Virus record (IMG/VR): IMGVR_UViG_3300042861_000404
Coordinates: 1 to 35,740 of that record
DNA length: 35,740 bases
Strand: one strand, 5' to 3'
Source: a virus
Positions 1 through 20,575 of this stretch are shown piece by piece (the first letter of the stretch is position 1; every line of letters starts with the position of its first letter). The position numbers and the translations under genes were made by a program. The notes beneath the pieces are model-generated. The model had not been told where the DNA came from. It was given only the letters and a program-made list of their open reading frames with translations, and searched no databases.

Positions 1-1616
1 TACAATTTCAAATAATCATTTTCTAAACTATCTAAATATTCATTACTATATGGAAGTGGAGGAAGTTCATTGCCATTTTGAGCTTGTGATAAGTTACCAC
101 CATATTTAAATCTTAAATTACCTAAAGCATTATAATCAAATTGTCTTTGTTGTTCAGGTGTAGGTCCTAAGCCAGGAAATCTTTTTTGTAATTGAGAATC
201 TTTTACAACTTGTGTGTCTGCATTATAATCAGTTTGTTGTATCATAGAACTTGGAATACCGGGAATAGTTGGAGTATTAATCATTGCAGCAGTAGGTTGA
301 CCGTTGTCACCTACAGGTATCATTGAACTTTGACCTACTTTATTAATACCCATGTATGTGTTATACTCATATGGATTTTTTGCACCAGGTAAATATGACA
401 TACCCCTACCATATTCATCAATACCCATTCTAACACCAGTTGGATCATCTTTACCACTCATGATCATAGCTCTAGTATCTGGATCCATTGCAGCTAAATA
501 ATTATAATCTTTACCTTTTAATGCATTTTTTTGACTGGCCGAATCATAAATTCTTTTATCTATTGGTCTACTACTAGTAATGAAATCATAATCATGAGTA
601 TCAGTATTATAATTAAATCTAGAATTAGCAGCTATATCTTTACCATATTGATCAACTGTTCTTAAACTTCCTTTGTTTCTAGATGCATTATATAAATCTG
701 TATTATCAGCTATGTATTTATTTGGATCATTAGCATCTTGAGTTATTTTATAATTATAATAATCTCCTTTAGTTGCATCTCTTATTCCGGCTTTCTTACT
801 TCCATCTCTAAAAAAGCCATCTTTAACTCCATCTTTATTTGCATCATCTCCACTTAAAAATTCCTTATAACCGCCATAAGCTACAGCAGCAGCTTTACCT
901 AAACTAAAATCTTTATTTGTATATTCAAATTCCATAGGATTTATATACAAAGGTGCTCTTTGCCAATGCATGTTTCTATTAGTAGATACATTATTAACTG
1001 CACCTACTTTACCTTGAGGTACGCCACCCATATCATATTTTTCACCACCATATTCTTTTTTCCAACCAGCAGCATTTTTAGCAAAGTTAGCCATCTTAAC
1101 TACAGCCGGAGGATACTCATCTGTATTTGCCATTACTTTACTTGCAGCTTCTTGTACAGACATACCACGTGCTTCAGCCCATCTAGTAAATTTGCCTTCA
1201 TTCTCAGGTTTAATTTCTATTCCTGATTTACCCATAGACATTCCTGGTTCATTAGTTTCTTCTGCTGACATATCATCAGAATGCATGCGTGTATCTTGTG
1301 TTAGTTCTTCTGGAGTTTTATCTAGATTAGCAAGATCTGGTTCACCACCAACTTGTTCTTCTACTTGTTGATCTTGACTTAACTCTTGGAATAAAGCCAT
1401 GATATCATCTTCCTCAAAGCCATTCATCATTAAAGCTTGACCAATAGTTTGTTGATCAACTTGTTGCTGCATTAAAGACACAACAACTTCAGCAGGATTT
1501 TGTCCTTGACCTATTGATTGAGAAATAAAATCTGAAATTTGTTGTATAGCAGGATCTACTGATTCTTGTTGTGGTTGTGCCATAACTTGTTCAGCCATTT
1601 GTCCTCCTTCTTGCAT
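1..1616 (-). CDS. Large virion protein, probable cargo/ejection protein (C-terminus outside window)
   Basis: The reading frame is open from 1616 to the window edge (about 538 residues) and continues beyond it. Two in-frame starts are possible, ATG at 1616 and ATG at 1598. I prefer 1616 because the AGGAGG just before the second ATG also encodes Glu-Gly-Gly, giving an N-terminus MQEGGQM that matches Gly-Gly motifs in the neighbouring giant protein. Numbered from the 1598 start, the first 75 residues are Gln-rich and acidic. Residues about 124-185 form a compact segment (GIEIKPENEGKFTR, then GMSVQEAASKVMAN, then KMANFAKNAAGWKKEYGG), which resembles a short module I remember from structural proteins of environmental and gut phages. 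YGG and MGG follow near 183-192, and another YGG lies near the window edge. The rest is polar, rich in Asn, Tyr and Asp, with no enzyme motif seen. It lies downstream of the muzzle-like and multidomain genes, where crAss-like phages encode virion cargo. Function is inferred from position only. Confidence 0.72.
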   Translation of the reverse strand, partial: MQEGGQMAEQVMAQPQQESVDPAIQQISDFISQSIGQGQNPAEVVVSLMQQQVDQQTIGQALMMNGFEEDDIMALFQELSQDQQVEEQVGGEPDLANLDKTPEELTQDTRMHSDDMSAEETNEPGMSMGKSGIEIKPENEGKFTRWAEARGMSVQEAASKVMANTDEYPPAVVKMANFAKNAAGWKKEYGGEKYDMGGVPQGKVGAVNNVSTNRNMHWQRAPLYINPMEFEYTNKDFSLGKAAAVAYGGYKEFLSGDDANKDGVKDGFFRDGSKKAGIRDATKGDYYNYKITQDANDPNKYIADNTDLYNASRNKGSLRTVDQYGKDIAANSRFNYNTDTHDYDFITSSRPIDKRIYDSASQKNALKGKDYNYLAAMDPDTRAMIMSGKDDPTGVRMGIDEYGRGMSYLPGAKNPYEYNTYMGINKVGQSSMIPVGDNGQPTAAMINTPTIPGIPSSMIQQTDYNADTQVVKDSQLQKRFPGLGPTPEQQRQFDYNALGNLRFKYGGNLSQAQNGNELPPLPYSNEYLDSLENDYLKL

Positions 1617-1670
1617 TAAACTTATTTTGTTTACTTTCACGGTATCTAGATTATATTATTAATATACAAA

Positions 1671-1711: not shown

Positions 1712-4700
1712 CTACAAATATGTCATTATATAATTTGCTGCAGTCATTCCTAATTCTTTTGCTTTACTATAGTAAATTCTATTCAATTTATCATAATTTT
1801 TTATTGCTTGTTCTTCATTTCCAATAATACCTTTTATGTAATCTTTATACATGCTAATATTACCAGAATTTAATTGACCACCAAATTGTTTTTTATTAGC
1901 AATAGCTCCTCCCATTTTCTTTTTAATTAACAAACTATTGTATGCTTGCATTAAAGAACCAGGTTTTGATTCACCACCTTCTTGTTTTTTATCTAATTGT
2001 CTGAATGATAAATAAGATGAATTACTTTTAACACGGTCAGCATAATTACTACGGCTATTCCATTTTGTAGGTAAGTATTTCCACACATCTTGTTTTTGTT
2101 TATCATTTAATTGTTGATTATATCTTACACCTAATATAGTAACAGTACCTATAGCTGCTTTTTTAGGATCTAGAAAATCTTTATTAGATGTAATACCTAC
2201 TTCTTTTAATGCTTTTTTTTCATCCTCATTTAAATAATTCCATCTTATTTGTGTTAACCCAACACTTCTAGTATTTTCATTAGCTCCATAAGTTGTTGCT
2301 TTTGATTTATAATCAGGACTACTTGATGATTTAGGATCTAAAACTTTATTGGCAGCTCTTGCTAAATTACCAGCAGCACTATGTGTATCTCCATAATTAC
2401 TTTCAGCACCATATATACCAAAACTCATTTTAGCTAATTCATTATATACATCAGATGAAATCTTTGCAGCTTTCATTACATCTTGTTTTCTTGTAGTTAA
2501 TGCAACAATAAAAGGTTTAGTAGTATTATTGTATTCTTTTTCATCATTGAAATCATTCCATTGAAATACATCATTTTTAAATTTTGTTTCATCAATATAG
2601 GCCTTAATTGGTTTATACACTAATGTGTTAGTTGTTTGATTTGCACCTTGACCTTTTTGTTTAGTTCCTGTTTGATCTATATACTGATTATATCTTTGTC
2701 TATTTTTAGAAGATACTCTTAATGCAGGTTTACCATCTATGATTTGAAAATTATTTCCCTCATCTTCAGGTAAAATATAAACTTTTGTATTCAAATCTAA
2801 TTGACCATATAGTTCTTTAAGATCTTCACACTTACCATTAATACAACCATTACTCATTCTATTATCTATAACAGTTCCATTATTAAATTTAATTCTTCTA
2901 GGTTTAGGTGTACCGTGAATTGTTGTTGCAACCTCAATACCATTTTCATTTTTTAAATTAAATGCAGGTTCATTATAGTATTCTGTACTAGCAGGATTAA
3001 TATTTGAAATAGTATAAATACCAGCACCAGTGGATTTGTTTCCTGCACTCCAATCCGTTTTACCATTTTTAACTTTAGTAACAGTTTGAGCATCACCAGG
3101 ATTTTGACCAACGCCAACCTCAAATGACTTTGTTAAATTACCACCCGTGTAAAGTTTCATTACAGCATTCTTCTTATCAACTATAAGATATGTATCTTCT
3201 GGTTTGTCATTATAATAACTTACAATCTTTTGCTCATCAGATAACTTATTAATTTTATCTTTCTTGTCTCTTATTGTATTCCAATCTTTATATACTTCTT
3301 CTTTAGGTGTGTAAACATTTTTGTTTACAAGATTAATTTTTTGATTAATGCTAATTATATTTGGATCTGAAATACTCTCATTATTTCTCATAATACTTGC
3401 AATAGAAGTATTATTTGCTGCAGCAATTTTACTAAGTGTATCCCCTTTCTTAACCACATATTCAACTAATGGACTTGGTGTAGTTGTATTTTGTGCGTTA
3501 GGTTCACCACCCTCTTTCATTTCTGGAACAAGTTCTTCTTCTCCCATTTGAGAAGTTGCTCCTAAACCTATTGGACCTAAAGTAAGAAGTTTATTAAAAC
3601 TATCTGATAAAAATTTTAAAGTTTTTGGATGATCATCAGCAAAATCAAATATTCTATGATATGATTGTTCTGTATAAGGATTTATAAAAGGTTCTTCTTT
3701 AAAATGTTTCATTGCCTCAAAAACTTTTTTAGGAGTAATTGGTTCATAAATATCTTTTATTAATCCTCTTTCTAACATTGATCTTCTTGCCTCAGCTAAA
3801 AATGATGATGGTTCTCTTGAAGGCATTCCCTGTTTATTTTTTCTAAAATAATTATATGCCTTTTTTGTTTTTTCTGAAAAGTTTTTTGATAAGTTTTCTG
3901 AATTATTAAAATATTTTCTAAGTAAATCATCTAAAGTAGTATTTCTAGCATTTTGTAAAGCATGATTTATTTCATGATCATAGACAGGCATTCCCTCTGC
4001 GTATTCTCTACCAATAGCAATTTCACCAGGCATTTCTGTACCATAATAAGTTTTTGAAAAAAGATCATCTCTAAAACTTGGTTCTTTACTTAAATTAATA
4101 GCATTATCTGAATAATTACTTGATCCTAAACCAGTTCTAAAAAATGCATTATTTCTAGGTATTCCAAATTTATTTGGAGTTAATTCAGAATTTAACTTTT
4201 TAGCTTCTAAATAATTTTTGTTAAAATTTCCCTGCAAAGCTGTTTTATACAATTCTGAAATTCTTGTATGAGCATTGCTAACAGCTTGTTTTTCTATATC
4301 ACCATACTTTTCTAAAACTGGAAAATCCCTTTTCAACATTTCAGCTTCTTGTACAACTAATCTATTAAATCCTTCAGGAGATTCAAGTTGTTCAATTTTT
4401 TTTAACAACTCTTTATCTAAATTTTCAGCACCAACAGTTATTAATTTTTTGTTTCTATTTTTAAAAGTTGTAGCAAGATTTTTTATTGGATTAGCATATT
4501 CAGTTTCTAATGTAGCACCTGTATTTCTAATATCATCTAGTTTTGATATAGTACTTTCTTCAATAGTTAATGGTTTATATCCTTGTAACCAATCTTTCTG
4601 TAATATTCTACCTTGTGATAAAGGTACTTCTGCGTTACCTGCTATCCATGGTGTATATCCTGAAGCCGAATTAGCAGGAAAAACAAAAGGTTCACCTGCT

Positions 4701-7700
4701 TGATTTACTCCAGATGTTTCAAATATAACAAATGGTCTACTTCCAGTAGCACCTTCTCCTGTACTATATAATTTTGTAAAATCTGTTCCTTCTACAAAAT
4801 GTGGTCTTGGAAAAATAGATTGATTTGCACTTCTAATTGCACCAGATTCTACAGCATCAGCTAATCCTGTTTCTCCTATTTGTCTATAAAAAGAATTAAC
4901 ATTAGGCTTAAATGCTCTAGGATTATATTTCCACGCATTAGATAACAAACCTTCTTTTGTACCTAATGCTTTTCTTGTAGCAGATAATCCTTCACCTATA
5001 GTTTTAGCAGCAGGACCAGCAATTGGTGCAATTTCTACAACATCCATTGCAAGATTACCAGCATTTTTCCAAGATGGATTATTATACATTTCTACAGCAT
5101 CTGGTCCAACGTTAGCTAAACCATGTCCTGCAAAACCTGCATTAATAGCATTACCAACAGTAGCTCCTGGAATAGAAGACATACCTGGTAAAGAAGTTGC
5201 TAATGCTCCTTCTATATACGGAGCAGCTGCAGCACCTGCAAATTCTAATCCTGCTGCAAGTGGAGCTAATGCATATGGTGCAAGCATTGCTGCTGCTGTT
5301 CCATATATTATAGGTGCTGCTATATTTGTTACATCTTCACTTAATGGAGCTTTTGTATATGCTTTTCTTCTAACAGCTCTTCCTATTGCAGAATCACTAT
5401 TGAAGTATTTTTTTTCTTCATCTGATAGTTCTTGATAAAAAGGATATTGGTTATCATAAGGAGTAACAACCACTTCATTAAATGGATTAAAAGAAATAGT
5501 ATTATCATCATTTTGTACACCTATTCTTCCTTCATTATATAGTTTAGCATATTCAGAAGAATCTGTTAATATGTTTCTTTTAATACCATCACCTTGATCT
5601 ACTGTTATTTCTTGTCCTTCTTGTGCTATTTGAGTTATCTTTCCTGGATGAGCCCATTGTCCCATGTCATCTTTAATGATTCCTCCTTCTTTTAATGCTG
5701 ATAATTTTTTTGAATATTTACCAATATGAGATCTACTTTTATTTTCCCAAAGTTCAGGTGTCATTTTTTTCAAATCTACAATATCAAAAATCTGTTCACC
5801 TGGGTTACCTTTAAATGCATAGTGTCCAAACTTATCAGGTTTTATTAAATTTCTAAAAGTACTTTTATAAAACTCAGGAGTAGTAAATATTTCTTTAATA
5901 GCCTGGTTCTCTTCGTATTTTATTGGATCAAAAGCTCTAAGCTCAGCTATTTTTTTAGATGTAAAATCTAAAGCTTTTTTATCTGCATTTGTAATAAAAC
6001 TATTTCTAATATCAAAATAGTCAACATGATGAAATGATTTATCTGGATAGATTTTTTTCATTTCTTCTTCAGCTTTATTGTATATATTTTTTCTAACATC
6101 AATATGCTTATCCCATTCTTTATCTATAATTGATTGTTTATTTTTTACTTTTAAATCTACTTTATTCATTAAATCATCTAAAAGATTAGGGTTACCTGCA
6201 CTTTTAACAAACTCTTCTATAGTTGTAGGAAATCTTTTTTGCCAATCTGTTTTTATTATATTTGCCCCTTCTGGATTATTAATTCCTTTTTGATAATCTA
6301 ACTGATTATTATTAATCCAGTCTTGTCTATTATTAGATGAATAATCAAGATTTTTTCTTCTAAGTTTAGCATAGTATCCATCTCCATAAGTGTATCCTTG
6401 AGCAGTAGGTATTGAATTAGAAGTATACAACGCATTATCTCCTTTGTTCATCATGTATCTACCATATCCAGTATCAGGAGGAATTTCCGTAAGCATTAAT
6501 TTTGCCGCTTCTTCAGGATTATCTTTCCAGTTAATATTTCTTTCTTCTAAGTTTTTTAATATGTCAGGATTTCTTTTTGCAAGTTCATCCCAATTTGTAC
6601 TTACACCTCTAACAAAAGTATTATGTCTATTCATCATACCTCTTACTGTTCTATTAGTAAGTTCATCAGATTGAGCAATTCTTTCTAAATTTTTTGGTAA
6701 TTTATATCCATATTGTTTTGCCCATTTTTTTGCATAATTTAAATCTTCTAAATTTTTAAAAATATTTGTAACATTATTTGCAGAAGAAGCAAATGATGGT
6801 CCAGCTGTTCTTAATCCTTGTCTTAATTCAGGAGATATACTTGTTGGAATATTTCTTAATTGTTTCATTCCTTTTTGAACAAATGGTTTTGCTCCTTTTG
6901 CTATAGGAATAAAGTTAAGAGCTTCTACACCTGCCATTGTTTGATTCAATGCAGCATCTCCAAAGTTACCTTCAGACAAATCACTAAACACTTGTCCTTG
7001 ACTTTCTGCAAGATTTTTTGCAGACTCAGCATAATATACAGGATTAATAAAATCAACAGCTGTATCAAGATTGTTTCTTTCTCCTGAACTAAAATTGTCA
7101 GGAATATCTTCATTTCTCACCTTATATCCTGCAGCAGTCATTGGATTAAGTGCTATTTCTTTTGCTTTACTTAATGTACTTTGAGGAATGTACTGTCTTA
7201 CTTCTTCTGGTTGTTGTTGTTCTGATAAACCTTGTTGACGTTTATAAACTTCTCTTGCTGTTGATTCAGAAACATTATGTTTTTTTTGAATTTTTTTTAC
7301 TTCAGTATCAACTTTTGTTTTTACTTTTTTAAACTCTTCTAATGCTTTATTTTGTTGTTTTAATTTTTCATCTGCCCATGCATATCCTGTAGATTTAGGT
7401 ATACTAAAATCTAATTTAGCAACATTAAGTTTTGGAGTTTCATTACCTGTTTGAGCTTTCACTAAACCTTTACCACCACACTTGTGACAATCATAAAGAT
7501 CAGATCCACCATCAACAGCTTTCCATTGCCAACCGCAGTTACCACACTTAATAGTTTTGTCTAATAAACCACCTCCCATTTTAGCAAGTAATGTTTCTGT
7601 TACTTCATTACCAGGGAACTGATAATCAAATCCAGGATACATTATCTGTTCATTACCTAGATTATCAATACCATGAATTGGTCCTTTTCTCAAAGGACTA

Positions 7701-7876
7701 CCATCTCTTTCTTTCATGGTTATAGAACCAGATGGAATAATGTTTTGATAATTATTAACATCTGGACTATCAATTCTGAATCCTTCTGTAGAAAATACCC
7801 CTGTAGTATAAGTGAATATTTCATTAGGACCCCCTGGTAATCCTCTACGTTCTATTTGTTGTATTTCTTTCTTCAT
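1712..7876 (-). CDS. Giant multidomain virion protein: zinc ribbon, ART-like segments, HExxH protease, LysM, L,D-transpeptidase, lytic transglycosylase
   Basis: The protein has 2,054 residues. Order seen: ITMK...MYPGFDYQFPG...VTE linker (about 50-95); zinc ribbon C111-C114/C130-C133; helical, charged stretch (170-220); possible ADP-ribosyltransferase-like segment with FVRG at R423 and YTSNS at 484-488; GQWAHPGKI linker (739-747); Ala/Gly-rich hydrophobic stretch (850-900), possibly membrane-active; second possible ART-like segment with FYRQIG at R998 and FVIFE at 1049-1053; metallopeptidase motif HEINH (H1301, E1302, H1305) with E1362 in FLAEARR as candidate third ligand; LysM (1470-1515); YkuD L,D-transpeptidase with HGTP (H1654) and SNGC (C1678); SLT lysozyme-like fold with E1825 in GAESNYG and SVGLTQI (1871-1877). 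The C-terminus ends KLNRIYYSKAKELG...NYIMTYL. The start overlaps the upstream stop as TAATG, suggesting translational coupling. Known roles of these families are peptidoglycan binding, crosslink remodelling and glycan-strand cleavage. I infer a role in wall penetration at genome entry. The protease, LysM, YkuD and SLT calls are solid; the ART calls are tentative. Confidence 0.87.
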   Translation of the reverse strand: MKKEIQQIERRGLPGGPNEIFTYTTGVFSTEGFRIDSPDVNNYQNIIPSGSITMKERDGSPLRKGPIHGIDNLGNEQIMYPGFDYQFPGNEVTETLLAKMGGGLLDKTIKCGNCGWQWKAVDGGSDLYDCHKCGGKGLVKAQTGNETPKLNVAKLDFSIPKSTGYAWADEKLKQQNKALEEFKKVKTKVDTEVKKIQKKHNVSESTAREVYKRQQGLSEQQQPEEVRQYIPQSTLSKAKEIALNPMTAAGYKVRNEDIPDNFSSGERNNLDTAVDFINPVYYAESAKNLAESQGQVFSDLSEGNFGDAALNQTMAGVEALNFIPIAKGAKPFVQKGMKQLRNIPTSISPELRQGLRTAGPSFASSANNVTNIFKNLEDLNYAKKWAKQYGYKLPKNLERIAQSDELTNRTVRGMMNRHNTFVRGVSTNWDELAKRNPDILKNLEERNINWKDNPEEAAKLMLTEIPPDTGYGRYMMNKGDNALYTSNSIPTAQGYTYGDGYYAKLRRKNLDYSSNNRQDWINNNQLDYQKGINNPEGANIIKTDWQKRFPTTIEEFVKSAGNPNLLDDLMNKVDLKVKNKQSIIDKEWDKHIDVRKNIYNKAEEEMKKIYPDKSFHHVDYFDIRNSFITNADKKALDFTSKKIAELRAFDPIKYEENQAIKEIFTTPEFYKSTFRNLIKPDKFGHYAFKGNPGEQIFDIVDLKKMTPELWENKSRSHIGKYSKKLSALKEGGIIKDDMGQWAHPGKITQIAQEGQEITVDQGDGIKRNILTDSSEYAKLYNEGRIGVQNDDNTISFNPFNEVVVTPYDNQYPFYQELSDEEKKYFNSDSAIGRAVRRKAYTKAPLSEDVTNIAAPIIYGTAAAMLAPYALAPLAAGLEFAGAAAAPYIEGALATSLPGMSSIPGATVGNAINAGFAGHGLANVGPDAVEMYNNPSWKNAGNLAMDVVEIAPIAGPAAKTIGEGLSATRKALGTKEGLLSNAWKYNPRAFKPNVNSFYRQIGETGLADAVESGAIRSANQSIFPRPHFVEGTDFTKLYSTGEGATGSRPFVIFETSGVNQAGEPFVFPANSASGYTPWIAGNAEVPLSQGRILQKDWLQGYKPLTIEESTISKLDDIRNTGATLETEYANPIKNLATTFKNRNKKLITVGAENLDKELLKKIEQLESPEGFNRLVVQEAEMLKRDFPVLEKYGDIEKQAVSNAHTRISELYKTALQGNFNKNYLEAKKLNSELTPNKFGIPRNNAFFRTGLGSSNYSDNAINLSKEPSFRDDLFSKTYYGTEMPGEIAIGREYAEGMPVYDHEINHALQNARNTTLDDLLRKYFNNSENLSKNFSEKTKKAYNYFRKNKQGMPSREPSSFLAEARRSMLERGLIKDIYEPITPKKVFEAMKHFKEEPFINPYTEQSYHRIFDFADDHPKTLKFLSDSFNKLLTLGPIGLGATSQMGEEELVPEMKEGGEPNAQNTTTPSPLVEYVVKKGDTLSKIAAANNTSIASIMRNNESISDPNIISINQKINLVNKNVYTPKEEVYKDWNTIRDKKDKINKLSDEQKIVSYYNDKPEDTYLIVDKKNAVMKLYTGGNLTKSFEVGVGQNPGDAQTVTKVKNGKTDWSAGNKSTGAGIYTISNINPASTEYYNEPAFNLKNENGIEVATTIHGTPKPRRIKFNNGTVIDNRMSNGCINGKCEDLKELYGQLDLNTKVYILPEDEGNNFQIIDGKPALRVSSKNRQRYNQYIDQTGTKQKGQGANQTTNTLVYKPIKAYIDETKFKNDVFQWNDFNDEKEYNNTTKPFIVALTTRKQDVMKAAKISSDVYNELAKMSFGIYGAESNYGDTHSAAGNLARAANKVLDPKSSSSPDYKSKATTYGANENTRSVGLTQIRWNYLNEDEKKALKEVGITSNKDFLDPKKAAIGTVTILGVRYNQQLNDKQKQDVWKYLPTKWNSRSNYADRVKSNSSYLSFRQLDKKQEGGESKPGSLMQAYNSLLIKKKMGGAIANKKQFGGQLNSGNISMYKDYIKGIIGNEEQAIKNYDKLNRIYYSKAKELGMTAANYIMTYL

Positions 7877-10800
7877 TATCTCATTGATAAAAGTAATTTG
7901 GTGTTATTCAATCTCAATAACATCTTTCTATTTTCTGATTTAACTCTTCTTAAAATAACATTGTTATAATAATGTCTAAACTTCTTGTGTTGTAATGGAG
8001 GCTTATTATAATTTAAATTTGTTGTATTTAAAAGTCTTATGTATCCATTAGGTTGTGTATCCCAAATTGATTGTTCAGCATTTGTAAATTCACCTCTATC
8101 ATTTGTAATATCATAGAACTGATTAAATCTATATTTTTGTTCTACTTTGGAACATAATATATTCATGCTATTTATATTGATAATAGGATAAGTCAATTCT
8201 AATAAAGGATTATTATAAGGTGTTGGAGTTAATTGCAGTAACCCAGATACTTGCTCATTATTATAAATAACAGATTGATCAAAATTAAAATCCAAATCTT
8301 CCCATTTATCATCATTACAAGCATATCCCATATCTCCTTTATATACATAAGTTTCTAATTGATACTCCATACTTCTAACAGTATTAACCATTTGTCCAGT
8401 ATTAGAAACTAATTCTACTTCCCATGGATAATCAACCCCATAATAATTGGCAAAACTATCACATCTTGTATTATGTCTCCAGAATGAACCAACTTTATAA
8501 TTAGCAGGTGTAGATTCATACTTATAAAAATTACAAATCTGTGGATTTGGATTTATATATGTAGGATTACCAATCAAATATACATCATCACAATTTCCAG
8601 TTGTAGTTGTAACACTTCCTACAGGAGATTCTGGACATGCACAACTTACTTTTCTACATACAGGTGGTGTAATATTATCACATGTACCTGTTGTTGAAGT
8701 ATAAAGACTTGTTGCTGAATTATAAAATACTTTTGTATATCCAGGAGCACAATCACAAACAAATGGAACTGAACAAACAGATCCTGCAATAGCACTTGCT
8801 ACAGCAGTAAATGTTGCAGGTATAGCAGCATTAATTCCAAATTGATATCCATCAACATTTACAGGTCCTGGTGTACAAGATATATTACCTAATACATTAC
8901 CGGTTGGTATAGCTGTATTTGCACCACAAAATAATGCATATACTCTTTGGTTTGCTGGACCAGTTGCATTTGGTGAAACACCCACTCCTTGAAATGGACA
9001 ACCTATATTTCCAGGATCAGTTTCTGTATCTGTAACTAATATTAAAATTTGTTTAAAAAATGGCTGTGCACTTCTATTACCTAATTGACTTATTGACTTT
9101 TGATTTAATCTGGTTTGTCCACTTGCCATACCTACATTGACAGATGTTCCACCACTTGTTGGCCAGTTGGCATTATACCATGCTGCAACTTGTGCCGGAG
9201 TAACTGTATTACTCATAGACCAAGTACCCCCTGCTGGATTTGGTATATTATAATTTGTATTTGCAGTATTCCAAGCAGTAAATCCAATCTGCATTGTTGC
9301 TGCAGCCATTTGTGAAGTTATATTTGGATCATTTAAAAATGCATTTAACCATGCTAATTGTGCTTGTTTACGTCCAGCTGATTGAGTTGATCCAGAAATA
9401 TCCATTGCTACAACAATATCAATTAAACAAGCAGTGGCCCCACCATTTACAATAGAATTGATTTGGTCAACAGTAACTATTGCTGGCTCATTAATATTAA
9501 TTGATTGTTCACATAATCCATTTGCAGAGTTATAATTATATCCCGGAGGACATTGTGGTATAGTTGTAGTTAATGTTTTAGTAGTAAAAAAATGATTAAT
9601 ACTTGGCAATGCAAGTTCTGGATGCCAATCATGAAATGATATCCAAGCTTTAGCTTTAGGATCATAACTTACAGTCCAAGAACAATCTTCAAAAAATATT
9701 GGATCACCTAATGTGATAGGATTTCCAGATAAAGCAAAACCTCTAGTTTCACTGTATGTAACATTAGCAATATATTCAGCTTTAACTCTATAATCTTTTT
9801 TCATAAAGTAAACTAAATCATCATTAGGATCATAAACAGTTTGGCAACCAACTCCCACTACTGGATTATCAGATAATGGAGATGCCTCTAATAAAGGATA
9901 TTGTTTAACCAATTGAGATGGTAAATATTTATTAAACCACCACTTCATTCCAGCATTAGATATTGGATCCAATGTTTGACCTGTAAAGTGAAATATTTTT
10001 CCTTGAGCCTGTGATATAAAAAATAAACCTACAGGTGTATTCATCACACTTCTCAAACTCTCACATGAACCATATTCATTTGATAAATCTGAATTAACAA
10101 TATTTTGAAATGGTTGACTAAATAATCCTCCATCACCAATTGTAATTTTAGTATCTAAAGATGTTTTTAACTCATCAACTCCTTGAAACATTTGTGGAGA
10201 CAAAAATGGAAAGAATATAATAGCTCCACTTTTATTAATAGGTTTAATAACACTTACTTTATTTTTAAAGTCTTTATAATTAAATGGTAAGAATACTCTC
10301 CAGAAATCTTTTTTAGATTCTTTCTGTGCTTGTAATGAATAAATTAATCTTTTTGGATAACTAACATAACAATTTTCTGCAGTATAAGGATCATAATATC
10401 TTGGTTGAATTTCACCAAAACTACCTAACTGAGTTACAAATTTAGATGGGCTTAATGATTCATCATATTTATAAAAATTATCTTTCTTTTCAATTTGTGC
10501 ATGGAATAATTCATCAATATCATTATAACCATATACATCATATATTCTTGCGTCAGCTCTATCTTCCCAATCTCTATTAGCTAAGTTAACTTCAGACTCC
10601 ACAAAGAAATCTAATATACCATTAACGTGAGTATACATATAAGCATATCTCATAGCAAACTTAGGATTAGGATCACCACTAGAACCAAAGATTGAAGTTA
10701 AACCACTAGCACAACTATTTGATCCCCTATCTAAATAAAATAAATCACTAGGAAAAACAGCATCTAATGCACCTTCACTTGCAAGACCAAATGATGCAAT

Positions 10801-13800
10801 TTCACCAGCCAAAGTACTCATGTCAAATTTTTGAGAATTTAACCAGAATCTTGGATAAGGTATATTAACATGTTGAGAATAATCATATGTAAATTCATCA
10901 GGTTGCCCTAATAAATATTGTGCAAATATTGGCATAATAACTTTTTCAGTATATCTTGTAATAAATATATCACCACCAAATATAGCTGAACTAGTATATT
11001 TAAAAGCATCAGGTTTAGTAGGATCTAAATATTCTACACAACCTCTCATTTGTACTTGCTTAATACCATCTAATTGACCATATTGATTATCAAAATTAAA
11101 TTTAAGAGCACCATAATAAGCAGATATAGTTCTTTTTTGTTTAGCTGTAGGATTAGTTAAATAATCACTACTGTAAGTATTAACTCCTCCATTAGCATCA
11201 ACATCTCCCCCAATTGTAAATCTTGATTTATCAATTATACTTGGTTCAGTTACATCTTTATCTAAAGAAATTGCTACAGTACTAGGTCTAAATAAATTAT
11301 TAATTTTATAATTTCCATTATCAAATGACTGAAATGATTGACCTAAATAATTTGAATCTGTATTTTTAATTCTAAATAATCCTGTATTGATTTTAGTATA
11401 TTCATTAAAAAATCCATAAGAATTATATTTAAATGCAAAATCAGATTTATTTACTAAATTATAAATCAATTCTAATATTTCATTTCCTCCAATTGCTATA
11501 TTAGTTTTTGACATTGTAAGAGAAACAAATGCTCTTACCACCATTGGTAATGATGATTCTGATGAATCATTTGTTTGTGAATTATTTATTGTACCGCCAA
11601 TTACACCAGGTGATAAACCAGCAGTAGTAACAATTCCTGCATTAACCATATCTAATGCATATGTAGCAATTCCACCAGCATAAAGATCTGCTAAACCAAC
11701 TGCATTATTAAGTAATGTATTTAAAGCTATTTGACCAACTGTTGAAACTCCGCCACCAACACCAGCTCCAGCTGCATTTACTGCAAGATTTGCACCACCA
11801 CCTGTTGTACCACCTGTACCAAAACCTAAATAAAAATCATTTGCTTGATAACTACCTCTAGCACCTTCAATAATTTTACTTCTAGTACCTAACATTTTAT
11901 GCATAGCATAACCAACACCAATAATAGAAGCTATTATTGCTGCACCATTTCTTAATAATTTAAACTGCGGATGATCTTCAGATGCTTTAAAATAACCACT
12001 TGAACTACCATTTACATAACCATATAATCTTGTTTCATATGCATTAAGAAATGGTTTAGTAAACATCAAATCTGGTGATGAAAAACTAAATACTTTTTTT
12101 GAATAACCTGAAGGTTCACCAGCTATAGGAGGATCAATACCCAATGGTCTAAAATTACCTATTGATTGACTATAGTTATCACAACCTTCTGTTCTATGAA
12201 TAGAATTAGCATCACCATCATGAAAATAAACATCAGGTCTTAAATCATTATATGGATAATTAGGATATAATCCTTGAACAGATCCACCTATTAAATTTTC
12301 TGCATTAGGAATAGTATACTTACGCATATTTCTAAACAATCCTTTTGCTAAAATTGATTTAGCACCTGCTCTAGATCCTCTTAATATTTCATACCCTACA
12401 ACATTTGTTATATAAGTTCCATCATTATTTTTAGGTCTACCAATATTTGTAAATTCTACACCTAATACGTTAATTAAATCTCCAGATGTAGTACTTATAT
12501 GCAATGGTGAATTTGAACCTCCAACTTCTTCAGTAGGAAACTTGTGGTGTCTAATAGGTTTACCACAAAGATCCCCCCAAATATCAGGCCTATCTGCAGG
12601 ATATCTTTCAGTTGATTCCCAATAACCCATTTCACCTCTTGCAATAATCAATGAACCATCAGGCTGAACTTCCGTTAAACCAGATGATGTAATTGTACCT
12701 GTATTATAAACCTTATATAATGGATCTCCAGCACTATCTAAAACATTATCACCTACTATTATATCTGTTTCTAAATATGTTCCTGAAGGTGTTGTAAATG
12801 GTCTTGGTGCTCTTCCTGGAATATGATATGATGAAGATCTTTCTCCTGTATTATAAATCCATCTAATAAAGAATGCATATTGCTCATCTCTTAAAAATCC
12901 CATTTTATTTCCACCTAAATGATAATAAGCAGAATCAATTTGATTTGCCACCCAATTAACTTTGATCTCATTTGCTATTGGTTGATAATTAAAATCAAAT
13001 TGACTAACAGGTCCTTGTCTAATTAACCAATCATTTACAACATACATTGCATTTGATTTCTCATAAGCAGGACTTCTTTGAGGAATTGTTTTTAAATTAA
13101 CAGCCACTAATGTATCATCAATATAATCAATATTTATATCTTCTTGTTGTGTACTGTAAATACCAATACGTTTAGCATATATTTGACCTTGATTTCTTAT
13201 AAGTAATACTAATTCATAATAATCATAATCATTATCTAAATTGCTTACTTTAACATTTAAAGAACCTCCTGTACCCTGATGTGAAAATAATGTTTGAATA
13301 TTAGATATACCAATATAATCAGTAACCTTTTGTTCAGTTTCAACATAAGCAATAAAAGCTTGATATGCTCCATTTTGTAACATACCACCATCTATTGATT
13401 TGGTTAAACTAACACAAGGCGTATCAACTAAAGGAGCTAATCTTATTTTTTCACAATTCAATCTTGCTGTATCATCATATGTAATACAATCAGCATTAGG
13501 TGCTGATGATACAGTTCTGATCCATGGTACTTTATCAATGTTTAATGAACGTGATGGATTGTTTCCATCATCCCAATATACTTGCCATGTACAATCAAAA
13601 TTTTCTTTTGCCGCACCAGTTATTAAATATTTTCTATTAAAGTTTAAACAAGGATCATTTACAATTACTTCATACTTGCATTCACTGTCATCAAATCTTC
13701 CAATTTCTGAATTTATATCATCAGTAGAGTAAACAATCCAGTGATCACCATATCTATGTATAGCTCCAATAATTGTATATGGTACAACACCGCATTGTAA

Positions 13801-13980
13801 ATTTGATGGTTCATTACCAATTACACCAAGATCACCATCAGTAGAATTGTTTATAGCATTACGGGCATGCCACCAACTTTCATTTGGTGCCATTGACTGT
13901 GTAATATCTTTATTCATTCCTTTGATGAATGAATTAGTATTTACGGATGATGTTCCAGGATTATTATTTTGTTGTGCCAT
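7876..13980 (-). CDS. Muzzle-like large tail protein with an embedded von Willebrand A domain
   Basis: The protein has 2,034 residues. The N-terminal third (NSFIKGMNKDI, WWHARNA, dense beta-type sequence with YWDDGNNPSRSLNI near residue 135) has the character of the big muzzle/tail-needle-region protein of crAss-like phages, and it sits directly after two ring proteins as expected. Residues about 670-800 are Gly/Ala-rich and hydrophobic. Residues about 1515-1735 form a vWA domain with a MIDAS site: D1527-x-S1529-x-S1531 (DISGS), a GGTS loop near 1610 and DTETD near 1648. Such domains bind protein or glycan ligands through a divalent metal. The domain is bracketed by two Cys-PGY motifs (C1477 PPGY and C1744 APGY), the second followed by a short Cys-rich stretch. 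The C-terminus is basic (ending LLRLNNTKLLLSMR). The stop codon overlaps the next start (TAATG). The tail role is inferred from order and family character; the vWA assignment is seen in the sequence. Confidence 0.78.
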   Translation of the reverse strand: MAQQNNNPGTSSVNTNSFIKGMNKDITQSMAPNESWWHARNAINNSTDGDLGVIGNEPSNLQCGVVPYTIIGAIHRYGDHWIVYSTDDINSEIGRFDDSECKYEVIVNDPCLNFNRKYLITGAAKENFDCTWQVYWDDGNNPSRSLNIDKVPWIRTVSSAPNADCITYDDTARLNCEKIRLAPLVDTPCVSLTKSIDGGMLQNGAYQAFIAYVETEQKVTDYIGISNIQTLFSHQGTGGSLNVKVSNLDNDYDYYELVLLIRNQGQIYAKRIGIYSTQQEDINIDYIDDTLVAVNLKTIPQRSPAYEKSNAMYVVNDWLIRQGPVSQFDFNYQPIANEIKVNWVANQIDSAYYHLGGNKMGFLRDEQYAFFIRWIYNTGERSSSYHIPGRAPRPFTTPSGTYLETDIIVGDNVLDSAGDPLYKVYNTGTITSSGLTEVQPDGSLIIARGEMGYWESTERYPADRPDIWGDLCGKPIRHHKFPTEEVGGSNSPLHISTTSGDLINVLGVEFTNIGRPKNNDGTYITNVVGYEILRGSRAGAKSILAKGLFRNMRKYTIPNAENLIGGSVQGLYPNYPYNDLRPDVYFHDGDANSIHRTEGCDNYSQSIGNFRPLGIDPPIAGEPSGYSKKVFSFSSPDLMFTKPFLNAYETRLYGYVNGSSSGYFKASEDHPQFKLLRNGAAIIASIIGVGYAMHKMLGTRSKIIEGARGSYQANDFYLGFGTGGTTGGGANLAVNAAGAGVGGGVSTVGQIALNTLLNNAVGLADLYAGGIATYALDMVNAGIVTTAGLSPGVIGGTINNSQTNDSSESSLPMVVRAFVSLTMSKTNIAIGGNEILELIYNLVNKSDFAFKYNSYGFFNEYTKINTGLFRIKNTDSNYLGQSFQSFDNGNYKINNLFRPSTVAISLDKDVTEPSIIDKSRFTIGGDVDANGGVNTYSSDYLTNPTAKQKRTISAYYGALKFNFDNQYGQLDGIKQVQMRGCVEYLDPTKPDAFKYTSSAIFGGDIFITRYTEKVIMPIFAQYLLGQPDEFTYDYSQHVNIPYPRFWLNSQKFDMSTLAGEIASFGLASEGALDAVFPSDLFYLDRGSNSCASGLTSIFGSSGDPNPKFAMRYAYMYTHVNGILDFFVESEVNLANRDWEDRADARIYDVYGYNDIDELFHAQIEKKDNFYKYDESLSPSKFVTQLGSFGEIQPRYYDPYTAENCYVSYPKRLIYSLQAQKESKKDFWRVFLPFNYKDFKNKVSVIKPINKSGAIIFFPFLSPQMFQGVDELKTSLDTKITIGDGGLFSQPFQNIVNSDLSNEYGSCESLRSVMNTPVGLFFISQAQGKIFHFTGQTLDPISNAGMKWWFNKYLPSQLVKQYPLLEASPLSDNPVVGVGCQTVYDPNDDLVYFMKKDYRVKAEYIANVTYSETRGFALSGNPITLGDPIFFEDCSWTVSYDPKAKAWISFHDWHPELALPSINHFFTTKTLTTTIPQCPPGYNYNSANGLCEQSININEPAIVTVDQINSIVNGGATACLIDIVVAMDISGSTQSAGRKQAQLAWLNAFLNDPNITSQMAAATMQIGFTAWNTANTNYNIPNPAGGTWSMSNTVTPAQVAAWYNANWPTSGGTSVNVGMASGQTRLNQKSISQLGNRSAQPFFKQILILVTDTETDPGNIGCPFQGVGVSPNATGPANQRVYALFCGANTAIPTGNVLGNISCTPGPVNVDGYQFGINAAIPATFTAVASAIAGSVCSVPFVCDCAPGYTKVFYNSATSLYTSTTGTCDNITPPVCRKVSCACPESPVGSVTTTTGNCDDVYLIGNPTYINPNPQICNFYKYESTPANYKVGSFWRHNTRCDSFANYYGVDYPWEVELVSNTGQMVNTVRSMEYQLETYVYKGDMGYACNDDKWEDLDFNFDQSVIYNNEQVSGLLQLTPTPYNNPLLELTYPIININSMNILCSKVEQKYRFNQFYDITNDRGEFTNAEQSIWDTQPNGYIRLLNTTNLNYNKPPLQHKKFRHYYNNVILRRVKSENRKMLLRLNNTKLLLSMR

Positions 13981-18204: not shown

Positions 18205-20469
18205 TTATATATATGTTGATGAACAACCGTTAGTGATTAATGAATTTACAGTTGCTGTTGCATAGCTAACATTCCATGCACCACCTGTTGCTATTGCAAA
18301 ATTTCTCCAAGGATATATTAATGTTCCGCCTGATGGAGTATATGTTAAACTAGTACCTGGACCTAATACAAAACATTTGATACCTTGCGTTAAACATGTT
18401 TGAGCCAATGAATTTAATCTTGCTACATCTGTATCATTAAATGCATCATCATCACCACTTGGGAAATTATCAGTATAAATAAGTACATATTTTGCAACTC
18501 CTGTTCTAAATGTTCCAGCAAATGCATTTGATTCAACAACAAACCCTAAAGCCATATCTGTAGGTTCTGGTCCACCTACTCCGCTTCCTATTGGCCAATA
18601 TGTAGGTGCAGGTCCGCCCTGCATATCTGTACCATTGTAAATTTTATTTAATTGAGTTGTAAATGATGTACTATTATTTGTAGCAAATTTTTCTACTGCA
18701 GTAATATATTGATATTTACCACCAATACCTGTATTTACAATTCTTTGAGGAACTGATGTTGTAGGACCTGGTAATGCTAAATAATCTACTGAAGTAGAAT
18801 AAGTTGTTGTAGAAGTAGACGCTTCATCAGCTAAAACTAAAGCTAATCTATAAGCATTTGTTCCTGATTCTGTTTGTATTGTACTTATAGTAGATGCAAT
18901 ACCTGCTTTAATAGTATTAATAGCTGAACCCATACTTGATGTATAGTCAAGTAAGAACACAACATCTAATCCATTACTACATGCAGCAGCTGCACTTTGC
19001 GTTGTGAATGTCACAATATTTGTTGTACAAACTTGTGTTTGACCACCAGCTTGAACTGTAACTCTAGTTTTATATTCTGTACCTGCAACCAAACCTGTAA
19101 AAGCATTTGTTACCGTAACACCTGGAGAATTTTGTGTATAAGTAGCTACAACAACATTTGTTGAAGAATTAATAATATCTATAATATAAACAACTCCTGT
19201 ACCTAAAGGATTTGTAAATGTAACAGTAGCTCCTGTTGATGTAATTGAACTCATAGATGGCATTGGACAAGGTATAACTCCCGCAACAGATTTAACTATT
19301 GTATTATTACATGTATCTCTACCATCAGTAACACAAAATGCTACACTAGTAGTTAATGCACCATAAGTGTTTAAACCTGGTAAAGATATAGTAACACCAC
19401 TTGCAGAATTTTGTAAAGCAGCTACACTAACAGTACTTGTAACTGTAACATTATTAACATCTTTGATAGTAATAATTGTACTACCAGCGCAATCATTAAA
19501 TGTTGCCGGTATAACAGAACCAGTTCCAGTTGTATTTTGAAAATTAAAATTAATACCTGATATTACACCTGTACCACTTAATACATTTGATGTATTATAA
19601 CCAAAGGTTACACTATCACAACCTGATGGGCAACAGTTAGTTTGAATACTTGAAACAGCCATATGTAAATCATTTAATACAGTCCATATATTCTGCGCGC
19701 TTTGTGCTAAATTTACAGGAGTATTAACCCAACCAGTTATTCCACCATATGTAACAGAAGGATTAGATAATGTTGGAGTAGTACTTAAAATATCAGCTTG
19801 ACTAATAGCTGAATTAATTGCAGCAGGTAAACCTACTGCTGTTTCTAATGAACAATATCTTACCTCTAAAGCAAGTAATAAAACAGATACATCTGTTAAT
19901 GTTCCTACATTAATTATACATGTTGGTACTACTTTTTTCTCAACAACAGCTCCGCTACATGGTAAAACACAATTTTCTAAAACTGTTATTCTAGTATTAT
20001 AATTACTTAATGTTGTATTAATAGTTGCTATTGAAGTAAGTATATTACAAACTTTATTAGCAATAAGAGTTGCAAATTGATCTAAAGGTAATTGTGTAAC
20101 TGGATTTCCTGATGGATCATTATAGACTAAACATGCAGGTAAAGTCATTATAGGTAAAGTATATGTACTAGAAGGTGCATTATCTGCGCATATTGCATTA
20201 ACCATTTGTTGTAAAACAGGAACTAATGTAGTAGGTGTTGTACCTGGAATATTAAGACATGATAAATCTAAACCAGTTAAATTTGGATTAGCAGTAACTC
20301 CATCTGTAATTAAGTCACATACTAATTCAGCTAACTTAGCTGTTACATCACTAATTGTATCTCCATTACATAGGTTTATACAACTAATATCTGGTCCTTG
20401 CCAAATGACACAATTAGATGAAATGCTATCACAGCCATTTGTTGAATTACTTGAATTTGTTGGTATCAT
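18205..20469 (-). CDS. Fibre/adhesion protein with FN3 and von Willebrand A domains
   Basis: The protein has 754 residues from ATG at 20469. A longer frame reaches ATG 20544, but the extra 25 residues would be read through an inverted repeat and are basic and unlike the rest, so 20469 is preferred. The N-terminus (NCVIWQGPDISC, CNGDTISDVTAKLAELVC) resembles virion-anchoring ends of fibre proteins in this phage group. Beta-rich Thr/Ser/Val sequence follows, then an FN3-like domain (about 400-492, ending FTGLVAGTEYKTRVTV) and a C-terminal vWA domain (about 500-754) with a complete MIDAS: D508-x-T510-x-S512, T637 in PEPTDMALG and D667 in YTDN. The domain order suggests a stalk with a metal-dependent adhesive tip, probably for host surface or extracellular glycans. 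The Cys-rich FN3 gene follows 29 bases downstream. Confidence 0.8.
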   Translation of the reverse strand: MIPTNSSNSTNGCDSISSNCVIWQGPDISCINLCNGDTISDVTAKLAELVCDLITDGVTANPNLTGLDLSCLNIPGTTPTTLVPVLQQMVNAICADNAPSSTYTLPIMTLPACLVYNDPSGNPVTQLPLDQFATLIANKVCNILTSIATINTTLSNYNTRITVLENCVLPCSGAVVEKKVVPTCIINVGTLTDVSVLLLALEVRYCSLETAVGLPAAINSAISQADILSTTPTLSNPSVTYGGITGWVNTPVNLAQSAQNIWTVLNDLHMAVSSIQTNCCPSGCDSVTFGYNTSNVLSGTGVISGINFNFQNTTGTGSVIPATFNDCAGSTIITIKDVNNVTVTSTVSVAALQNSASGVTISLPGLNTYGALTTSVAFCVTDGRDTCNNTIVKSVAGVIPCPMPSMSSITSTGATVTFTNPLGTGVVYIIDIINSSTNVVVATYTQNSPGVTVTNAFTGLVAGTEYKTRVTVQAGGQTQVCTTNIVTFTTQSAAAACSNGLDVVFLLDYTSSMGSAINTIKAGIASTISTIQTESGTNAYRLALVLADEASTSTTTYSTSVDYLALPGPTTSVPQRIVNTGIGGKYQYITAVEKFATNNSTSFTTQLNKIYNGTDMQGGPAPTYWPIGSGVGGPEPTDMALGFVVESNAFAGTFRTGVAKYVLIYTDNFPSGDDDAFNDTDVARLNSLAQTCLTQGIKCFVLGPGTSLTYTPSGGTLIYPWRNFAIATGGAWNVSYATATVNSLITNGCSSTYI

Positions 20470-20524
20470 AAATATTTTTTTTCTATAATGTATTATTCTA
20501 TTGAAATCTATACAATTATAATAT

Positions 20525-20575
20525 ACAAAAAATTTTATAACCAAACAAGAAAAGTTCAGTTATAAAATTTTTTGT
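20525..20575 (-). terminator. Large AT-rich inverted repeat, probable terminator of the 84-residue gene
   Basis: Two perfect 17-base arms (ACAAAAAATTTTATAAC at 20525-20541 and GTTATAAAATTTTTTGT at 20559-20575) flank a 17-base loop. The T6 at the end of the minus-strand stem is internal to the arm. It lies 24 bases after the 84-residue gene and before the 754-residue gene. Because it is symmetrical it could also be a processing or regulatory hairpin. Confidence 0.55.

Follow-up and report, generated by a model that had tools for sequence, protein, structure and literature searches.

A mosaic protein encoded behind the muzzle gene of a crAss-like phage is a probable virion-borne cargo of polyvalent-type build

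A gene directly downstream of the muzzle gene

The 35,740-nucleotide virus record IMGVR_UViG_3300042861_000404, analyzed at its full length and referred to here as the window, encodes a 2,054-residue protein, P0001, immediately after the gene for the muzzle protein of an uncultured crAss-like phage. P0001 is probably a virion-borne cargo protein of polyvalent-type build, encoded at the gene position that cargo C1 (gp45) occupies in PhicrAss001. Among the grounds for this reading are the position behind the muzzle gene, which is that of C1; the hypervariability of this position, termed the slot, among related phages; the exchange of cassettes between phages; and a polyvalent domain content of slot proteins.

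According to the available text of Bayfield et al. (2023; PMC10172136), the muzzle gene of PhicrAss001 (gp44) is followed by gp45, whose product mass spectrometry identified in virions, where it was observed in contact with the portal and the tail barrel. The P0001 gene holds the corresponding place, its start overlapping the stop of the muzzle gene. All structural genes of the window lie on the minus strand in the order TerL, portal, major capsid protein (MCP), and then muzzle, with PHROGs matches for the portal (phrog_6547, 8e-92), the major head protein (phrog_11589, 1.5e-31), and TerL (phrog_6681, 4.5e-45). Because a crAss-type muzzle with the Pfam crAss_MUZ domain shares one block with portal, MCP, and TerL, the combination that marks Crassvirales, the 35.7-kb record belongs to a crAss-like phage and represents its virion block. 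An earlier reading of the window from its letters alone (the original prediction) had placed P0001 at a virion locus, which this gene neighborhood bears out.

P0001 begins with ATG and runs in a single frame on the minus strand, from 7876 to 1712. Plus-strand coding of this interval was excluded, with many stops present. Every motif named in the original prediction was found in this one frame at the position given there: R423 (in NTFVRG), YTSNS (484-488), R998 (in FYRQIG), HEINH (1301-1305), LysM (1473-1515), H1654, C1678, E1825, and Q1876. These motifs are not due to chance, since relatives share the LysM-YkuD-SLT part at 82% identity (L001), the HEINH part at 82% (L002), and the R423 part at 74% (L121). 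The segments of P0001, in N- to C-terminal order, and its two neighbors are as follows.

1712-7876, minus strand: P0001, 2,054 amino acids (aa), mosaic protein and probable cargo of polyvalent type (frame and relatives)
7574-7843, minus strand: N-terminal conserved slot module, residues 12-101 (...ITM...GID..G...MYPG.DYQFPG..VTE), 52% to L117 and 41% to L121
7472-7549, minus strand: zinc-ribbon-like CGNCGWQW...CHKCGG, residues 110-135 (sequence)
6797-7456, minus strand: region B, residues 141-360, without known enzyme motif (segment common to 19 proteins)
5693-6694, minus strand: ADP-ribosyltransferase (ART)-like segment 1, residues 395-728, with R423, SNS 486-488, PGEQ 692-695, and a helical insert (9-sequence alignment)
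5567-5692, minus strand: KEGG (729-732) and partial second module copy (IKDDMGQWAHPGKITQI) (comparison with L090/L122 and L094/L123)
4982-5614, minus strand: MID segment, residues 755-965, hydrophobic stretch 852-880 (sequence)
4556-4984, minus strand: ART-like segment 2, residues 965-1107, with R998 and ...KDWLQGYK (13 proteins, alignments)
3506-4534, minus strand: zincin-like metallopeptidase cassette, residues 1115-1457, HEINH 1301-1305, Glu in EPSSFLAEARRSM, ending in KEGG (HExxH conservation)
3332-3460, minus strand: LysM, residues 1473-1515 (Pfam PF01476, 4.5e-12)
2774-3193, minus strand: YkuD, residues 1562-1701, H1654 and C1678 (Pfam PF03734, 6.1e-13)
1997-2509, minus strand: SLT/GH23-like domain, residues 1790-1960, E1825 and S-V-G-L-T-Q 1871-1876 (16-sequence alignment)
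1715-1981, minus strand: C-terminal tail, residues 1966-2054, two K..GG sites (90% identity with L001; also in L117)
7876-13980, minus strand: muzzle protein, 2,034 aa, directly upstream of P0001 (Pfam crAss_MUZ, 1e-29)
3-1640, minus strand: next cargo-like gene, P0003, cut by the window end and rich in GG sites (sequence)

A hypervariable slot with exchanged cassettes

In about 33 relatives, the gene order is exonuclease, small genes, ring protein, muzzle, slot gene, and next cargo-like gene. Slot proteins range from 193 to 1,910 aa among 55 relatives, with a coefficient of variation of 0.48 compared to 0.09 for the muzzle, and in a wider set the largest, an open frame of L004, has 2,172 aa; most of the records used are metagenomic fragments. 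Among pairs of phages whose ring proteins are 80 to 100% identical, median alignable coverage is 0.44 for the slot protein, compared to 0.96 for the muzzle and 0.82 for the next gene.

Parts of P0001 have different closest relatives. The L001 phage shares the muzzle (85% identity), the P0001 N terminus (86%), and the LysM-YkuD-SLT part (82%), and its slot protein lacks P0001 residues 147-1468. The zincin part is 82% identical to that of L002, although the muzzle and exonuclease of that phage are only 42% and 48% identical, and the ART-like segment 1 is 74% identical to that of L121, although the muzzle is at about 41%. Cassettes at 74 to 82% identity are thus much closer than backbones at 40 to 50%, which means that they have been exchanged between phages. 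P0001 fills a slot in which cassettes are traded, at the place of cargo C1, a point absent from the original prediction. In L121, it is the gene after the slot (L121:11561-15016) that encodes YkuD, and not the slot gene itself; domains thus seem to pass from one cargo gene to its neighbor.

A Pfam survey of 73 slot proteins returned ART-PolyVal, ADPrib_exo_Tox, GNAT, histidine phosphatase, Pre-toxin TG, LysM, SLT, and YkuD. Slot proteins with ART-PolyVal include those of L089, L101, and L104, and the domain also occurs in other large frames of several relatives. Two such copies, in G009 (the genome of L038; 37945-38934) and G041 (the genome of L073; 7034-8023), sit in frames of about 1,950 to 2,000 aa roughly 20 kb downstream of the slot. 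It has been proposed that polyvalent proteins enter the cell together with the injected DNA and that their own zincin-like peptidases process them (Iyer et al., 2017; PMC5512222), and the slot's predicted domain set is the vocabulary of these proteins. P0001 itself carries at least two disparate predicted activities in one chain (LysM and YkuD by Pfam, together with a conserved HExxH cassette), and its gene lies within a group of late virion genes. SLT, ART-PolyVal, and GNAT are further domains found in this slot in relatives.

Two observations concern the neighboring genes. The C-terminal part of the muzzle is fused in the window (7876-13980), L001, L117, and L121, and many relatives carry it as a separate gene of about 288 aa before the slot gene. 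Stretches resembling von Willebrand A (VFLLDYTSSMGS... and IVVAMDISGSTQSAG...) were recognized by eye in the window frames 18205-20544 and 7876-13980, a tail-associated gene and the muzzle, where they may be adhesion domains.

Wall-directed domains

Judged by sequence, the domain calls in P0001 differ in strength. The LysM and YkuD domains of the original prediction were both recovered by Pfam, the YkuD match scoring 50 bits against a cutoff of 23.4 with the catalytic His and Cys in place. H1654 and C1678 are invariant in three sequences at 38 to 82% identity (alignment A11). Searches of P0001 against Pfam, NCBIfam, and PDB sequences gave no match to SLT, metalloprotease, or ART, so that only part of the predicted set was found by profile; the PDB-sequence and NCBIfam searches added LysM relatives only, and NCBIfam taken by itself returned LysM only.

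The predicted transglycosylase holds at the level of residues, with a catalytic-type Glu and S-x-G-x-T-Q invariant in 16 sequences, in line with the SLT/GH23 pattern of a catalytic Glu in an E-S-x motif and a G-L-x-Q motif. Profile support is weak: Pfam SLT (PF01464) gave no match in P0001 even at E values up to 10, and it matched 2 of the 16 SLT-like relatives weakly (E of about 0.004). Profile comparison of the SLT-like domain with the Pfam-SLT copies of relatives gave no signal, the profiles being thin. The slot proteins of L001 and L117 carry a further, genuine Pfam SLT domain in the same chain as YkuD, so the combination of a wall-cutting domain with YkuD is well supported for the slot.

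The original prediction regarded the pairing of a glycan-cutting domain with an L,D-transpeptidase-type domain as unusual. Some 25 loci contain the YkuD and SLT-like pair, which also forms stand-alone proteins, so it is stable in these families and is a recurrent phage unit, not a single occurrence. The stand-alone proteins (L136, L143, L144, and L145) are 530 to 660 aa long, one includes LysM, and no recognized crAss-type neighbors were seen in the stretch read around them.

Zincin-like and ART-like segments

The HExxH motif of the zincin-like cassette varies as HEINH, HEIGH, HEVGH, HEMGH, and HELGH in P0001 and divergent relatives, with the downstream Glu conserved. It is retained in L002, L004, L005, L075, L087, and L156; L158 is without a plain HExxH. 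For the metalloprotease of the original prediction, this conservation is favorable, and the zincin fold was not confirmed: no profile matched, and the AlphaFold model of ART-like segment 2 plus zincin was set aside at a predicted local distance difference test (pLDDT) score of 41.

In ART-like segment 1, the Arg and SNS are invariant and the putative Glu is present in seven of nine sequences. The segment also occurs in a Carjivirus slot protein, QOR56498.1 (L115), from human gut genomes. Its AlphaFold model reached a pLDDT of 76, with Foldseek and VIA matches falling on the helical insert; no ART chain was among the structure matches listed, which is not evidence against an ART fold. In segment 2, R998 is widely conserved, and none of 12 members gave a Pfam match, the ART-PolyVal profile (PF18760) included. 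Comparison of both segments with the ART-PolyVal copies of relatives by hhalign gave no signal, again with thin profiles. An iterative profile of segment 1 drifted and was discarded. The two predicted ART-like segments thus stand on conserved R423 and R998, lack a profile match, and remain unproven, the Glu of segment 1 being variable and segment 2 degenerate.

Conserved module and K-x-GG linkers

The N-terminal module is present in nearly all slot proteins examined, and a PDB sequence search found no solved relative of it. An N-terminal ribbon similar to the zinc-ribbon-like stretch of P0001 (residues 110-135) appears in the consensus of other slot proteins, one of which matches Pfam Zn_ribbon_4. 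In L090/L122 and L094/L123, the same ART-like segment 1 cassette is followed by a complete module (IKDDMGQWAHPGEITEI...ITM.GV.YPVLGISDTGD...MYPG..Y.F.G..VTEYP). P0001 holds only the start of this second copy (732-770), beside its diverged N-terminal copy at 12-101, and the partial copy is likely a recombination remnant. A "split" module in P0001, with its N-terminal half at 729 and its C-terminal half at 47, was considered and dropped, as L121 and L117 show the N-terminal copy to be full and diverged.

The module also occurs at the N terminus of a 495-aa protein (L114:14974-16461) of the cultured cyanobacterial Leptolyngbya phage Lbo-JY46 (PP438436.1). Its C-terminal part is a transglycosylase-like domain (Pfam Transglycosylas, E of 0.001). 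The gene directly before it, of 1,654 aa, stands at the place of the muzzle gene, and no crAss_MUZ match was found for it in Pfam.

Slot proteins contain 6.55 sites of the form [KRQ]x0-2GG per 1,000 aa and the next gene contains 7.87, compared to 0.43 for upstream virion genes, an excess partly accounted for by composition. In P0001, K-x-GG sites terminate the ART-like segment 1, zincin, and SLT-like cassettes, and 18 to 26% of homology breakpoints lie near K-x-GG sites, compared to 10 to 12% of random positions, a roughly twofold difference.

Proposed function and alternatives

As a polyvalent cargo, P0001 would be packaged through its conserved module, whose role is probably to dock it in the particle or sort it there, and its activities would come from swappable enzyme cassettes, which K-x-GG linkers often connect. 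During infection, the chain would be ejected, probably extruded via the tail and muzzle. LysM may then bind peptidoglycan, the SLT-like domain cut the glycan, and YkuD act on peptide stems or protein-wall links, while the HExxH peptidase could release cassettes or cleave host proteins. Proteins of the host could also be modified by the ART-like segments, provided that these are active. The staged entry machine of the original prediction is plausible in these terms, in roughly this order of events. More tentatively, the post-muzzle gene may be an effector-exchange slot, in which a docking module is followed by swapping cassettes delimited by K-x-GG sites and the zincin cuts these joints during or after ejection. 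The cassettes would then comprise wall enzymes, peptidases, and host-modifying enzymes, swapped like polymorphic toxin domains.

Several points weigh against P0001 being such a cargo. In a phmmer search of P0001 against PDB chain sequences, no crAss001 chain was among the matches listed, gp45 not having been compared directly. Neither Pfam and NCBIfam nor structure and profile comparisons confirmed an SLT, zincin, or ART fold in P0001. The Glu of ART-like segment 1 is replaced by Thr or Gln in other relatives and by Lys in Carjivirus, and segment 2 of P0001 is without the A..YG..F.AEVP motif of its relatives. The association of K-x-GG sites with breakpoints is modest, and the universality of the module is biased upward by loci having been collected partly through it.

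The combination of LysM and wall-cutting domains is a typical lysin feature. The LysM-YkuD-SLT part could accordingly be an endolysin-type lysis enzyme acting from inside in late infection, fused to or freed from a cargo backbone, and the stand-alone YkuD and SLT-like proteins of other phages agree with this. We consider it unlikely, because in crAss-like loci the part shares one reading frame with the slot protein that directly follows the muzzle, the P0001 N terminus shows no obvious signal peptide by eye, and in Lbo-JY46 a transglycosylase-like domain and the same module again follow a muzzle-position gene. It is quite unlikely that the enzyme-like segments have for the most part decayed or taken on other roles and that P0001 serves chiefly as structural filler or an internal scaffold of tail and capsid. 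Degeneracy of segment 2, slot proteins as short as 193 aa, and a PhicrAss001 C1 thought to be stretched and partly unfolded (available text of PMC10172136) would fit such a role, but the invariance of the YkuD residues in three sequences and of the SLT-like ones in 16, together with retention of HExxH across divergent relatives, argues against it, and tenfold length variation speaks against a length constraint.

A surface-exposed adhesin or tail-tip accessory, with diversity reflecting receptor or wall-type matching and not injected effectors, would suit a gene behind the muzzle, a wall-binding LysM domain, and a diversity pattern resembling that of receptor-binding proteins. This is very unlikely, since the domains of relatives (ART-PolyVal, GNAT, and histidine phosphatase) are intracellular-effector-like and the PhicrAss001 counterpart lies inside the capsid and tail, as described in the available text of PMC10172136.

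The crAss-like phages are the most abundant gut viruses, yet little is known of their passage through the cell envelope and their takeover of the host. One syntenic slot trading effector and wall-cutting cassettes would offer a handle on entry and early takeover, and the slot position would provide a route to many new phage effector domains. With its two enzymes, the recurrent YkuD and SLT-like pair would open the wall in an unusual way.

Comparison with known systems

Like P0001, gp45 of PhicrAss001 is a large protein among virion genes, encoded directly after the muzzle gene. It differs in being described, in the available text of PMC10172136, as a 90.8-kDa protein that has segments bound to the portal and the tail as well as a predicted transmembrane helix, with no enzymatic domain set described there. 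The Carjivirus protein QOR56498.1 (MW067002.1, p-crAssphage-like), annotated as hypothetical, is encoded in the same post-muzzle region and shares ART-like segment 1, with about 31% identity to P0001 over residues 370-523 and a second match near its own end; unlike in P0001, no YkuD or SLT-like part was matched in it.

The text of PMC5512222 has no mention of crAss, YkuD, or LysM, and among the best 15 of 85 literature matches none joined polyvalent proteins with crAss-like phages. The polyvalent proteins of PMC5512222 resemble P0001 in that a single phage protein, encoded close to virion genes, unites several enzymatic domains of unrelated kinds, and in their recurrent themes of zincin-like peptidase, ART, and peptidoglycan-cutting domains. 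Unlike them, P0001-type proteins occupy one syntenic slot and have a conserved module and K-x-GG linkers. Parallels would also be phage T4 Alt, an ART with an R-S-E site, and the N4-type virion RNA polymerase polyvalent proteins, which are packaged in the virion and injected early and, in the N4 type, likewise join several activities (PMC5512222).

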